In this document: positions 513 to 6,599 of the stretch, piece by piece
Layout: the number at the start of each line of letters is the position of its first letter
Numbering within the stretch: position 1 is the stretch's first letter
Assembly (NCBI GenBank): GCA_017656295.1
Contig: JACDOC010000001.1
Span: 248,001 to 312,000, forward strand
Source: Bacillus sp. (in: firmicutes)
GTDB taxonomy: Bacteria; Bacillota; Bacilli; Bacillales; JACDOC01
Direction of reading: 5' to 3'
Length of the DNA: 64,000 bases
The notes under the pieces: model-generated
What the model was told of the DNA's origin: nothing
The model's input: only the letters and a program-made list of their open reading frames with translations
The model's database searches: none
Made by a program: the position numbers and the translations under genes

Positions 513-553
513 GTCAACAAACCGATATTTCTATTATGATGGGAGTTATGCTT

Positions 554-1514
554 TTGATAAAAAAAGAACGTAAAATTCCTCTTATTCTCCAAAAATATGA
601 AGCTTTGCTACGAAGGCTTCCGGCAGCTCATCCGAAACGGGAACTGATTGAAAAAGAGCTATCGAAAAGACGTGCAGGATATGAAGGAGAGAAGTCAATC
701 GACTACTATCTAAATGAGATTTCGAAGGATCGTTACTTTATTTTTCATGATCTGCGGCTACCGATAGGCGATTCCTTTGTTCAAGTTGATATGGTATTAC
801 TATCCGCATCCTACCTGCTGATTCTCGAAGTGAAAAATATAAAAGGGACCCTTTACTTAGATCCTTATATTCAACTGCTTCGAGTGATTGATTCAGAAGA
901 AGAAGCGTTTCCGGATCCGATTTTACAAACGGAACGGCAACAGAAGAAGTTAATTTCATGGCTTACCTCTTACCAGTTACCGATGCTTCCTATCGAGTTT
1001 CTCATTGTGATTAGCGATTCTCAAAACCGCTCCTCCCCATAAAAGGATTCCCCCAATGGTCATCCGTGCCGCCCATTTACCTCACAAAATCGAAGCCTTT
1101 GAAAAAATGTACCGGGAAGAGAAAATAACTAGAAAAGAAATGAACAAAATCTCCCGTCTTTTTCTCAAACAACATACCTCGCTCAATAGTGATGTTTTAT
1201 CGGTCTTTCACCTATCAAAGGATGACATCCTAACAGGTGTCCACTGCCCGAACTGTTATACACTGCCTAATTTGAAACATACGCACCGCAATCGCTGGAC
1301 ATGTTCCAAGTGTCATACGATTCATCCTGATGCCCACATCGCTGCATTACGCGACTTTGCACTTTTACTTGGAACGACCATTACTAATCGAGAGTGTAGG
1401 CGGTTTTTGCATTTAACTTCTGTACCGTCAGCAGCAAAACTGTTAGCAGCAATGAATCTCGATTATACTGGCACATTCCGTGATCTAAAATATGTTTTGC
1501 CTCTCATTGAATAA
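554..1514 (+). pseudogene. NERD-domain/zinc-ribbon protein gene, frameshifted
   Basis: Two consecutive frames, ending at 1042 and resuming by about 1024 in a shifted frame, match the two halves of the intact paralogue at 22704-23678 end to end. The first half has the nuclease-related NERD core (VDMVLL, then LEVKNIKG, a D...ExK arrangement). The second half has the CPNC/CSKC zinc ribbon and the TITNREC segment. Against the paralogue the sequence right after the VISD codons (about 1018-1030) is 11 bases shorter, which breaks the frame and yields a stop at 1040-1042. The start is taken as TTG 554, eight bases after GGGAG and matching the paralogue's TTG; ATG 548 is possible but too near the ribosome binding site. 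A sequencing error cannot be excluded from sequence alone. Confidence 0.85.
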
Positions 1515-1956: not shown

Positions 1957-1990
1957 TTCTTTCATTAATTAAAGTATATTTAATAATGCG

Positions 1991-2180
1991 AAATGAAGAA
2001 CGCCTTCATCGAGTACACGTTCTTCATTTGAAAAAGGCAAATCTATCGAAAGGTAGAGACGCAAAGTTACAGACCTACGGTGGTAACACTATGGTGGCTG
2101 GACTGCTGAAGAATGGAGAACTACTCGAAATGAGTAGATTCAAAATTCTTCCGATCAAAAAAATTTGTATTGGAGGAATT
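1991..2180 (+). promoter_or_regulatory. Predicted riboswitch expression platform with four competing arms
   Basis: Arm A (1991-2002) and arm B (2018-2029) are a perfect 12-bp inverted repeat. Arm B (2018-2026) can instead pair with arm C (2107-2115), closing the aptamer. Arm C (2108-2114) can instead pair with arm D (2145-2151), enclosing a separate 6-bp hairpin at 2121-2137. Arm D (2145-2152) can also pair over 8 bp, one G-U, with the Shine-Dalgarno GGAGGAAT at 2172-2179. No T-run follows C:D, so translational rather than transcriptional control is favoured. The pairings are visible in the sequence; ligand-dependent switching is inferred. Confidence 0.6.
2018..2115 (+). promoter_or_regulatory. 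Cyclic di-GMP class I (GEMM-I) riboswitch aptamer
   Basis: The conserved GEMM-I elements appear in order. GGCAAA is at 2036-2041. A 6-bp stem (2042-2047 with 2052-2057) is capped by a GAAA tetraloop. GACGCAAAG is at 2058-2066, then GACCTACGG, and ATGGTGGCTGGACTGC at 2091-2106. The first G of GGCAAA (2036) corresponds to the ligand-contacting G20 of the characterised aptamer, where A would instead suggest a cAMP-GMP variant. The A after GACGC (2063) corresponds to A47. The closing helix can be formed by 2018-2026 with 2107-2115 (9 bp, one G-U). The aptamer lies 68 bases upstream of the start codon of an exported protein, so it should control that gene in response to c-di-GMP. Confidence 0.92.
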
Positions 2181-2183
2181 GTT

Positions 2184-3656
2184 ATGTTTAAACATGTACG
2201 GAATGTCCTTACGACAAGTGTCCTTGCGACAGCTTTTACCTTTTATTTAGGAACGGGTCAAGCTCTAGCCGAAAGCGATGAGCAACCGACAGAACCGCAA
2301 ACCACACAGGAAGAGCAAATATTAGAACAACCGACAACAGATGAAACGGTGGTAGAATCAACACCGGAAGAAGCGGAGTCTTCCTCAGAAGAAGCAACCG
2401 AAGAGGAACAAGCACCAGAGGATGAAGGAAGTAACGAAGAGCCAGCAGCTGAAGAAACTGGTGATATGACTAATGAAGAACCTGCCCCAGAAGCCGAGCC
2501 AATTACTGAACAAGAAGAGGGAACCGAAACTCCTTCCCTTTTACCGGGTGACTTTTTCTATTTTGTAAAAATCCTTCTTGAAAATGTGCAACTAGCGTTA
2601 ACATTTGATGAGGTGAAAGAAGCAGAATTACTCGTATCTTTTGCCCAAGAGCGGATTCAAGAAGCCGAGGCCCTGATTGCGAACGGTGAAGAAGAATTAG
2701 CGAAAGAAGTGCTAGAAAAAGCGATTGAGCAACAAGAACAAGCCCTAGCGAAATATGAAGAGGCTGAGTCTGATTCTGAAGAGGAGACGGACGCTTCATC
2801 TGAAAATGAAACCGACACTACCAATGAAGAAGAGGCCGAGGAGCAACCACCTGCTTCCGACGATTCCATTCGCCAAGCGCTTGAAGAAAAATTCACTGCG
2901 AACATCTTAGCTTTAACGGCAGCTCTTGAAAAAGTTGAAAATCCTCGAGCAAAAGAAGCTCTTCAAAAGAATATTGAAAAGGCTCAAAAGAAGTTAGAGA
3001 AGAAAATCAATAAAAAATTGGCTAAGCTCCAAGAAAAAGAATGGAAAGCCGATCAACAACGTGAGGAACTGTCAGAGAAACTAGCATCTGGCGAGATGAC
3101 TCAAGAAGAATATGACAAAAAACTAGCTGAAATGAACGAAGAGTTAGTTGAAGAGCAAGAAGAACTGCGGAAGGAATTCGAAAAAGAATCAGATAAAGTT
3201 GTAGGAAAAGTCCTCGAAAAGGCAAATAGCAAACATAAAGGCAATAAAGAGAACGAACAAAATCAAGAAAAAGTTAATGAAAACGAGGACAAAGAATCTG
3301 TTCGTCAAGTAGCTGTAAACATGAACGCAGAATCAAGTCAAAAAGCAGTAGAAAAACAACGTGAGGCGAAACACAAAGATAAACAACGTGAAGAAGAAAA
3401 ACGCCGTGAGCACAGAAACAAAGACCGTGAAGAAGCGAAAGAACAGAATAAAAGATTAGAGAAAAATGAAGCACATAAAGAAGAAAATGACAAAGCAGAA
3501 CCAAAAAAAGTCGATAAACATACAGAACAGAAAGAAAACGTAGACCACCATAAACAAAAAGAATCCGACAAAAAAGATCATAAGGAAAAACATGAAGAAC
3601 GAAAGAATGAGAACAGAGGGAAAGACAAAAAAGAGGACGATGATGACCAAGATTAA
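2184..3656 (+). CDS. Exported acidic/charged DUF5667-domain protein under c-di-GMP riboswitch control
   Basis: A 490-residue secreted protein. ATG 2184 is chosen because GGAGGAAT lies 4 bases upstream and a signal peptide follows directly (basic start, hydrophobic core, cleavage after about A29 in GQALA). Residues about 30-115 are Glu/Pro/Thr-rich low complexity. Residues about 116-190 match the DUF5667 pattern (LLPGDFFYFVK, then LALTFDE and a long Ala/Glu helix). The rest is highly charged, coiled-coil-like Glu/Lys sequence ending in a Lys/Glu/His/Asn/Asp-rich tail. No membrane anchor, LPXTG or SLH motif is visible, so it is probably released or held in the wall by charge. The function is unknown. 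The c-di-GMP leader points to a role in the motility/biofilm switch; that is inference. An upstream in-frame ATG at 1986 would place the start inside the riboswitch and is rejected. Confidence 0.85.
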   Translation: MFKHVRNVLTTSVLATAFTFYLGTGQALAESDEQPTEPQTTQEEQILEQPTTDETVVESTPEEAESSSEEATEEEQAPEDEGSNEEPAAEETGDMTNEEPAPEAEPITEQEEGTETPSLLPGDFFYFVKILLENVQLALTFDEVKEAELLVSFAQERIQEAEALIANGEEELAKEVLEKAIEQQEQALAKYEEAESDSEEETDASSENETDTTNEEEAEEQPPASDDSIRQALEEKFTANILALTAALEKVENPRAKEALQKNIEKAQKKLEKKINKKLAKLQEKEWKADQQREELSEKLASGEMTQEEYDKKLAEMNEELVEEQEELRKEFEKESDKVVGKVLEKANSKHKGNKENEQNQEKVNENEDKESVRQVAVNMNAESSQKAVEKQREAKHKDKQREEEKRREHRNKDREEAKEQNKRLEKNEAHKEENDKAEPKKVDKHTEQKENVDHHKQKESDKKDHKEKHEERKNENRGKDKKEDDDDQD

Positions 3657-4309: not shown

Positions 4310-5911
4310 ATGAGAGCAATTAAGCTTCATACGAAAATGGCGTTGTTTATTTGTTTGCTCTTGTTAATAGTGTTAGGGATCTTAGGATCTTATTTTACCC
4401 ATATGATCTCTGAAACGTTGGAAGAACAAACAGGGAAAAGGGCGTTACATGTTGCGACAACGGTTGCTGAGATGCCAGCGATTCGCGAGGCATTTAGTTT
4501 AGAGAATCCATCTTCTGTGATTCAACCGATTGCTGAAGATGTGCGCATCAAAACCGGAGCCGAATTTGTCGTTGTCGGAAATAAAGATAGTATTCGCTAT
4601 TCCCATCCGATTCCTGAGCGGATTGGGAAAAAGATGGTTGGTGGGGATAACGATCGTGCGCTAATAAAAGGCGAGTCGTACGTATCCAAAGCGGTCGGTT
4701 CTCTTGGTCCATCTTTACGAGGGAAAGCGCCGATTTTTGACGAAAAAGGAGAAGTCATTGGCATTGTGTCGGTTGGCTTTCTTTTAGAAGACATTGAAAC
4801 GATCGAAAAGCACTATCAATTCAAAGTGATGTTTCTTGTTGTTTTCGTCCTCACAATTGGAGCAATCGGTTCTTTTTACATTTCCAAAGGGTTTAAAAAG
4901 GCGATTTTTGGACTGGAACCTCATGAGATTGCGAGTCTATTTGTTGAAAAACACGCCATTTTAGAATCTGTTCGTGAAGGGATTATTGCCATTAATAACA
5001 GCGGGAACATTACGATGGTTAACCAACAAGCTTATGACATTCTCGGGATGGACCGGAAGAAAAATTGGATTGGTCAATCGATTCATGAAGTAATACCAAA
5101 CTCACGTATGGTAGAAGTGCTCCAAACGAAAGAAAGTCATTTTGACGAAGAACTCAAGATTGGAAACAACGAACTCATTGTCAATCGGGTACCCATTTTT
5201 AATGGCGATGACATCATAGGAGTCGTATCTAGTTTTCGGAAAAAAACAGAAATTGACCAACTGACGAAAGAATTAACCCAAGTTCACCGATTCGCTGAAG
5301 CATTACGCTCTCAAACGCATGAATATTCGAATAAACTAAACACCATCTCAGGACTCATACAACTTGGTTCTTATCAAGAAGCGCTCGATTTTATACATAA
5401 AGAAACTGTAGAATATCAAACGATCATTCAACAGTTAATGCGAACGGTTCCAGATACGATGATTGCCGCTATTATTCTAGGAAAATATAACCGGGCCCAC
5501 GAGTTAAAAATCGACTTGCAGATAGATGAAGAGAGCAGTATGAAAGACATCCCACCCCATATCCATCGCGAGAAGCTTGTCACCATCATTGGAAACTTAC
5601 TTGATAACGCCTTTGACGCCGTGTTAGCCGCAAATAAAAAAGAAAAAACGGTTCATTTATTTATGACGGATATCGGGGACGATTTGATTTTTGAAGTCGA
5701 GGACTCCGGGAACGGCATACCGGAAGAGTTGATCGATCAAATTTTTCAAAAAGGTGTGAGCACGAAAAAAGGGGAAGGAAGAGGTATGGGGCTATATTTA
5801 GCCAACCAAGCCGCTCACTATTTAAATGGGTACATTACGGTTGAGAACAGTCCTCAAGGAGGGGCCGTTTTTACCGTCGTCATTCCGAAAAGGGGGAAAG
5901 AGCATGAGTAA
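4310..5911 (+). CDS. CitA/DcuS/MalK-family sensor histidine kinase
   Basis: A 533-residue membrane kinase with GAAGGAG upstream. Order: transmembrane helix (about 11-32), extracytoplasmic PAS-like (sCache) sensor (about 33-170), second helix (about 171-191), cytoplasmic PAS (about 210-305). The SpoOB-type dimerisation helix carries the phospho-acceptor His337 (QTHEYSNKLN), followed by an ATPase domain with NLLDNAFDA (from Asn429), DSGNGIP and GRGMGLYL. This family (B. subtilis CitS, MalK, DctS) senses C4-dicarboxylates or citrate and controls their uptake. It overlaps the response regulator by 8 bases and sits beside a tricarboxylate transporter operon, so that operon is its likely target. 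The exact ligand cannot be read from the sequence. Confidence 0.93.
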   Translation: MRAIKLHTKMALFICLLLLIVLGILGSYFTHMISETLEEQTGKRALHVATTVAEMPAIREAFSLENPSSVIQPIAEDVRIKTGAEFVVVGNKDSIRYSHPIPERIGKKMVGGDNDRALIKGESYVSKAVGSLGPSLRGKAPIFDEKGEVIGIVSVGFLLEDIETIEKHYQFKVMFLVVFVLTIGAIGSFYISKGFKKAIFGLEPHEIASLFVEKHAILESVREGIIAINNSGNITMVNQQAYDILGMDRKKNWIGQSIHEVIPNSRMVEVLQTKESHFDEELKIGNNELIVNRVPIFNGDDIIGVVSSFRKKTEIDQLTKELTQVHRFAEALRSQTHEYSNKLNTISGLIQLGSYQEALDFIHKETVEYQTIIQQLMRTVPDTMIAAIILGKYNRAHELKIDLQIDEESSMKDIPPHIHREKLVTIIGNLLDNAFDAVLAANKKEKTVHLFMTDIGDDLIFEVEDSGNGIPEELIDQIFQKGVSTKKGEGRGMGLYLANQAAHYLNGYITVENSPQGGAVFTVVIPKRGKEHE

Positions 5912-6599
5912 CGTCCAAGTACTCATTGTGGAAGATGATATGAAAATATCAGAAATTAATCGTCGCTTTACGGAAAAAGTAGAAGGATTTGAAGTATGCG
6001 GAGTGGCGTCGTCGATTGATGAAGCGAAAGAGGTCATCGCTATTCTTGAGCCAGACCTCTTGTTACTTGATGTGTATTTTCCCGATGGGGACGGAATCGA
6101 TTTTTTATGGTATATTCGACAACATTACCGAGACGTTGATGTGATTTTAATTACGGCAGCGAAGGAAGTGGATCGAGTAGAAGCAGCGATTCGCGGCGGA
6201 GTGTTTGACTTTTTAATTAAACCGATTATTTTTAAACGACTCCAGCAAACATTAGAAAAATACCGTGAATATCGAAATAATCTCCAAACAATGAAAGAAG
6301 TCAACCAACATCAAGTCGATCGCTTATTGCATCGTATGAAGGAAGAAGAAGTGAACGAATCGGTCGTTCCTAAAGGGATTGATCCATTAACGTTAAAAAA
6401 AGTACAACAGCATCTATTACGGTTTTCCGATGGAGTTACTGCGGAAGAATTAGGTCAATACGTGGGTGTGAGTCGAACCACCGCTCGCCGTTATTTAGAA
6501 TATCTCGTCTCGACAGGAGCGGTACGTGCCGACCTCACGTATGGTAGTGTCGGCAGACCTGAACGAAGATATATTTCCTTACAATTTAAGGGATCATAA
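5904..6599 (+). CDS. CitT/MalR-family response regulator
   Basis: A 231-residue regulator. ATG 5904 is chosen because GGGGGAAAG lies 5 bases upstream and the receiver domain begins at once. Receiver: acidic pair in VEDD, phospho-acceptor Asp56 (LLLLDVYFPDGDG), switch Thr in ITAAKE and Lys in FLIKPI. The C-terminal half (about 150-231) is a DeoR/IclR-like winged helix with VTAEELGQYVGVSRTTARRYLE and SVGRPERRY, as in MalR, CitT and DcuR. It pairs with the kinase upstream. Its 3' end overlaps the convergent DUF4387 gene by 14 bases, so transcription of the two could interfere. Confidence 0.93.
   Translation: MSNVQVLIVEDDMKISEINRRFTEKVEGFEVCGVASSIDEAKEVIAILEPDLLLLDVYFPDGDGIDFLWYIRQHYRDVDVILITAAKEVDRVEAAIRGGVFDFLIKPIIFKRLQQTLEKYREYRNNLQTMKEVNQHQVDRLLHRMKEEEVNESVVPKGIDPLTLKKVQQHLLRFSDGVTAEELGQYVGVSRTTARRYLEYLVSTGAVRADLTYGSVGRPERRYISLQFKGS

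Follow-up and report, generated by a model that had tools for sequence, protein, structure and literature searches.

The leader of a DUF5667 gene in Bacillus sp. probably (at about 0.75) contains a c-di-GMP-I riboswitch that represses translation through strand exchange, with the ligand turning the gene off. Aptamer, arms and conservation were read from sequence; the sign and the effect size were obtained by calculation only. The platform is readable and conserved, so that its sign and every helix are testable by a handful of point mutations in a non-pathogenic background, and c-di-GMP control of DUF5667 proteins and of some WxL surface proteins in Bacillaceae is likely.

Aptamer and downstream gene

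The window, meaning the whole stretch of DNA that was analysed, comprised 64,000 nt and corresponded to positions 248,001-312,000 (+) of contig JACDOC010000001.1 from Bacillus sp. GCA_017656295.1. The leader and its gene carried the following features.

1991-2002, + strand: arm A (anti-P1), pairing with B over 12 bp
2018-2029, + strand: arm B, the 5' strand of P1, with A or C as partner
2026-2110, + strand: c-di-GMP-I (GEMM-I) aptamer, Rfam RF01051, E 3.5e-14
2107-2115, + strand: arm C, the 3' strand of P1, of which 2108-2114 pairs with D instead
2118-2126/2132-2141, + strand: spacer hairpin between C and D in the MFE fold
2144-2159/2164-2180, + strand: Shine-Dalgarno-masking hairpin, 12 + 4 pairs with one bulge
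2145-2152, + strand: arm D (anti-SD), with C or the Shine-Dalgarno (SD) as partner
2172-2177, + strand: Shine-Dalgarno GGAGGA, 6 nt 5' of the start codon
2184-3656, + strand: regulated gene, predicted secreted protein of 490 aa with a signal-peptide-like N-terminus and a DUF5667 domain (PF18915, 1.3e-20)

The sequence-only reading had called the element a textbook GEMM-I aptamer, and this was borne out by a covariance search with the Rfam model (80.3 bits, gathering 35). RF01051 was the sole Rfam match in the window and its model was covered in full (positions 1-87). Every paired model position present in the window was a standard pair. The conserved GGC...GCAAAG core was present, as were helices P2 and P3; in the aptamers of relatives, P2 and P3 varied with compensation. 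The specificity position of GEMM-I RNAs is the first G of GGC, and an A there marks the cGAMP variant. By Vc2 numbering, this residue would be position 2036, which is G, not A. Judged from these sequence features, the stretch is a real c-di-GMP sensor RNA, which would be expected to bind its ligand.

The start codon of the DUF5667 gene is ATG 2184. Upstream of it, the frame has no stop codon across the entire aptamer as far as another ATG at position 1986 (window 1986-2183). This upstream ATG was rejected as the start of a long ORF, since the frame is not open in most homologues.

Arms of the expression platform

All four pairings proposed earlier held exactly as written when checked base by base: A:B (1991-2002/2018-2029) with 12 Watson-Crick pairs, B:C (2018-2026/2107-2115) with nine pairs including one G-U, C:D (2108-2114/2145-2151) with seven Watson-Crick pairs, and D:SD (2145-2152/2172-2179) with eight pairs including one G-U. 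The last helix was longer than first stated, spanning 2144-2155/2169-2180 plus 2156-2159/2164-2167. B:C is the aptamer's own P1. Because C is common to P1 and C:D, P1 is mutually exclusive with the expression-platform helix.

The linked A-B-C-D-SD chain arose in one of 4000 dinucleotide shuffles of the leader, which rules out a chance origin of the full chain; a D:SD helix of at least eight pairs was by itself common by chance (23% of shuffles). The U-rich tract that follows a G+C-rich hairpin in transcription-terminating GEMM-I platforms was found 3' of no hairpin between 2110 and 2184 of the window.

Homologous leaders

A DUF5667-domain search yielded 28 loci, and GEMM-I elements were located upstream in seven of the seven among them with at least 66% identity (Mesobacillus, Ornithinibacillus, Aquibacillus, Cytobacillus, two from Metabacillus, and Salinibacillus). 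The leaders of these seven aligned with the window from arm A through the ATG. A covariance model built from these eight leaders (window included) was run against 397 genomes of the order, giving about 22 strong matches, followed by a plateau of ordinary GEMM-I elements near 100 bits; leaders with the platform scored above about 110 bits. Alignment of the leader in related genomes, which had been put forward as a check, revealed the platform in 27 further leaders from Bacillaceae-type genomes, resulting in a clean set of 28 with the window. In homologues, too, the C-D interval is occupied by a hairpin-forming spacer, and the Shine-Dalgarno is conserved as GGAGGGATTTTTTTATG.

Across the 28 leaders, C:D was paired in 96.4% of cells and the eight-pair D:SD core in 93.6%, while B:C was paired in only 77% in the window register. 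Leaders with CCAAATG could form a short P1 alongside C:D. Classical covariation gave little signal in C:D and D:SD in this set, so swap tests were used instead; with two partners to match, D is expected to be nearly invariant and hence to covary little. For A:B a set of 27 was used, namely the 28 leaders minus L094 and L095, plus L084. In it, the 5' flank was more complementary to B than shuffles were, with a mean z of -2.4 and a Fisher p of 1.4e-15. By permutation, arms matched their own partners better than those of other leaders in the case of A:B (p 0.0005), C:D (p 0.001) and D:SD (p 0.0045), the leaders being related and significance thus overstated; for B:C the preference was not significant (p 0.12). 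As an example, L036 has UCUGUU in B with AACAGA in A, where most other leaders have UCGUUC with GAACGA.

Folding calculations

Nearest-neighbour folding was computed by transcript length and by macrostate, for the RNA alone at equilibrium. When D has just been transcribed and the SD is absent, A:B + C:D beats P1 in the window, with a margin of 5.4 kcal/mol; at this stage the combination was favoured in 24 of 27 leaders. Following removal of the 5' flank, P1 replaced C:D at the D-made stage of the window, which indicates an anti-P1 role of A.

The full-length RNA gave a different picture. In the window, P1 + D:SD was 6.4 kcal/mol, and A:B + D:SD 5.7 kcal/mol, better than A:B + C:D. D:SD thus wins with or without P1, and equilibrium exposure of the SD is computed as about zero in both states. 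The same near-zero SD-free probability in both states was obtained for L040, L037, L069, L077 and L080. The earlier picture of a ligand-free leader with A:B, C:D and an open site therefore stands only for the stage that precedes synthesis of the SD or, in the full-length RNA, in the weaker sense that the SD is cheaper to open.

Freeing the SD in the window cost 7.0 kcal/mol with P1 forbidden and 13.8 kcal/mol with P1 locked (about +6.7). Locking P1 raised this cost in 26 of 26 leaders, by 2.9 kcal/mol on average and most in the window, yet the window SD was computed closed in both full-length folds. The P1 effect fell to about zero once C:D was forbidden. Since the cost is higher with P1 throughout, the predicted sign is OFF. 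At full length, the effect of the ligand would consist in a higher SD opening cost or in a choice made kinetically as the RNA is transcribed. In the window, the gene may be closed for the most part if equilibrium alone decides, and expression in the ligand-free state of the host species would depend on kinetics and ribosome competition.

Proposed mechanism

Ligand binding, the kinetic order and the physiological meaning of the switch are what we infer in the following scheme. Without ligand, the 5'-end arm A would capture B, so that P1 cannot close. C would then be free to capture D while D is being transcribed, and less energy would be needed to free the Shine-Dalgarno. Binding of c-di-GMP would lock P1 (B:C) and withhold C; D would remain on the Shine-Dalgarno in the long hairpin, giving less of the DUF5667 secreted protein. 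Masking of the SD by D:SD in the ligand-bound fold is what sequence and calculation predict. The OFF sign at translation proposed earlier is thus supported by conservation in the 27 further leaders and by the computed rise in opening cost. Overall, the sequence-only reading had the anatomy right and probably the sign, its ligand-free state being incomplete.

Alternative explanations

The SD hairpin might be so stable in the host that the gene is mostly off regardless of ligand, leaving a switch that is weak or inert there and functional in relatives. We consider this unlikely. In its favour, the calculation closes the SD in either state in the window and the five other leaders named above, the part of D beyond C:D (2152-2159) offers a ready toehold for the SD strand, and the B. 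thuringiensis element Bc1 is a precedent for binding without regulation (PMC11218506). Against it, all arms are intact, where idle arms should decay; the window has the largest of the 26 computed effects of ligand on the cost of opening; and the calculation treats free RNA at equilibrium, whereas a ribosome binds and the RNA folds during transcription in the cell.

Two further explanations are highly improbable. That c-di-GMP raises expression would have precedents among class I elements of B. thuringiensis, ON switches being given in PMC4759541 and, for Bc2, as cited in PMC6366702, and the class therefore gives no sign; however, the platform leaders contain no pairing by which P1 formation would release the SD, calculation gives OFF for 26 of 26, and the terminator variant L084 has the same sign by anatomy. 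Control mainly at transcription or RNA stability (for instance through the action of Rho or an RNase on mRNA that is not being translated), with SD masking secondary, would fit the terminator-like platforms of L084 and probably of the Fictibacillus DUF5667 leaders, and such effects often accompany translational repression. Against this, the conserved element is the SD arm and the stretch 2110-2184 lacks a U-rich tract after any hairpin.

Comparison with known systems

Class I c-di-GMP elements include ON and OFF switches, some working on transcription and others on translation; tests exist for few of the translational ones, and membership of the class does not reveal the sign (PMC6366702). With the RF01051 class the window shares the aptamer fold and core, P1 as the switching helix and an envelope- or secreted-type gene, whereas the Rfam model stops at the aptamer, without the four-arm SD-masking platform. 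Among riboswitches, no mechanism is more common than strand exchange (PMC10907184). As in the translational riboswitches of that grouping, a switching strand of the first helix is common to aptamer and platform and the output is access to the ribosome binding site; unlike them, the window has an extra 5' arm A that disarms P1, and a five-segment chain A-B-C-D-SD.

V. cholerae Vc1 and Vc2 are likewise class I aptamers acting without transcription termination, as summarised in PMC6366702; they differ from the window in having an unrelated leader and genes and in responding in opposite directions to each other. The window platform, unlike Vc1/Vc2, is specific to Bacillaceae-type genomes. Bc1, a class I element of a relative, resembles the window in that its ribosome binding site and AUG join a stem-loop upon c-di-GMP addition, but it has two terminators, where the present leader has none, and did not regulate in response to c-di-GMP (PMC11218506). 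As Bc1 binds c-di-GMP without a change in expression (PMC11218506), it is a warning for all predictions on the window platform. C. difficile class I switches such as Cd1 share the OFF sign predicted for the window, but act through transcription termination (PMC6366702).

Platform family

The riboswitch kind is already known; the platform family is newly delineated. The majority of platform leaders precede DUF5667 genes. WxL-type genes follow six of them, called by Pfam for L077, L080, L081 and L082 and by sequence likeness only for L094 and L095, and genomes G313 and G143 carry the platform twice, once per gene family (DUF5667, WxL). In L084 the same aptamer and arm order occur with D inside an intrinsic terminator, an 18-pair hairpin followed by AUUUUUAUU, 5' of a DUF5667 gene; since the D arm belongs to the terminator, the sign would be the same as in the window (OFF). 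Fictibacillus DUF5667 leaders have a different platform with a terminator-like hairpin. Because their folds with and without the terminator lie within 0.4 kcal/mol, no sign is claimed for them.

We regard it as an even chance that these leaders constitute a distinct inherited platform family: a five-segment chain A-B-C-D-end on GEMM-I aptamers that precedes genes from two or more unrelated families of secreted proteins (DUF5667, WxL), in some genomes at two sites, and whose last segment is exchangeable (a Shine-Dalgarno, or a terminator as in L084). A description of such a family was not found in the open-access papers searched, nor was any paper among them joining DUF5667 or WxL with c-di-GMP riboswitches. 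A search of the same literature for DUF5667 proteins likewise found no paper.

Candidate promoters, locus and genome

Two candidate promoters were noted upstream of the riboswitch.

1975-1980, + strand: candidate -10 box TATATT from sequence reading, which would place the transcript start at about 1987, just 5' of arm A
1928-1933/1951-1956, + strand: alternative candidate promoter TTGAAA-N17-TATCAT, which would place the transcript start at about 1963

By eye, a TATATT/TATACT/TATAAT-like hexamer recurs 10-18 nt 5' of A in many homologous leaders.

The 3.1-Mb host genome contains three GEMM-I elements besides the riboswitch of the window and encodes seven GGDEF domains, which makes a c-di-GMP system in the host likely. 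On host contig C1, three GEMM-I elements at 236256, 243546 and 250026 (L034 and the window) span less than 14 kb and stand before genes for an SLH-domain protein, for a secreted protein rich in Lys and Glu, and for the DUF5667 protein. These genes form a local cluster of surface genes that are likely under c-di-GMP control. The element at 243546 scored 65.8 bits and its core is divergent.

Elsewhere in the host genome (L001 1471-2282, contig C10 near 2685), a GEMM-I aptamer and an intrinsic terminator were located 5' of folE, encoding GTP cyclohydrolase I (PF01227). By eye, the antiterminator and the GGAU strand of P1 overlap, which makes an OFF switch possible there. Among the fetched loci, a conserved GEMM-I/folE link was found at no locus apart from L001.

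Upstream of the riboswitch, window 536-1514 contains a NERD-domain protein (PF08378) ending at 1042, followed by a second ORF at 1056-1514; their proximity alone suggests that a single gene may have broken into these two parts. A degenerate tandem repeat of period 21 with about eight copies (unit AACGGAAAGTAAATTACGTCA) occupies 1533-1706, between this NERD-type region and the candidate promoters of the riboswitch. On the 3' side of the riboswitch gene, at 4310-6599, lies a citrate/dicarboxylate-type two-component pair (sCache_3_2 kinase and DpiA-like regulator).
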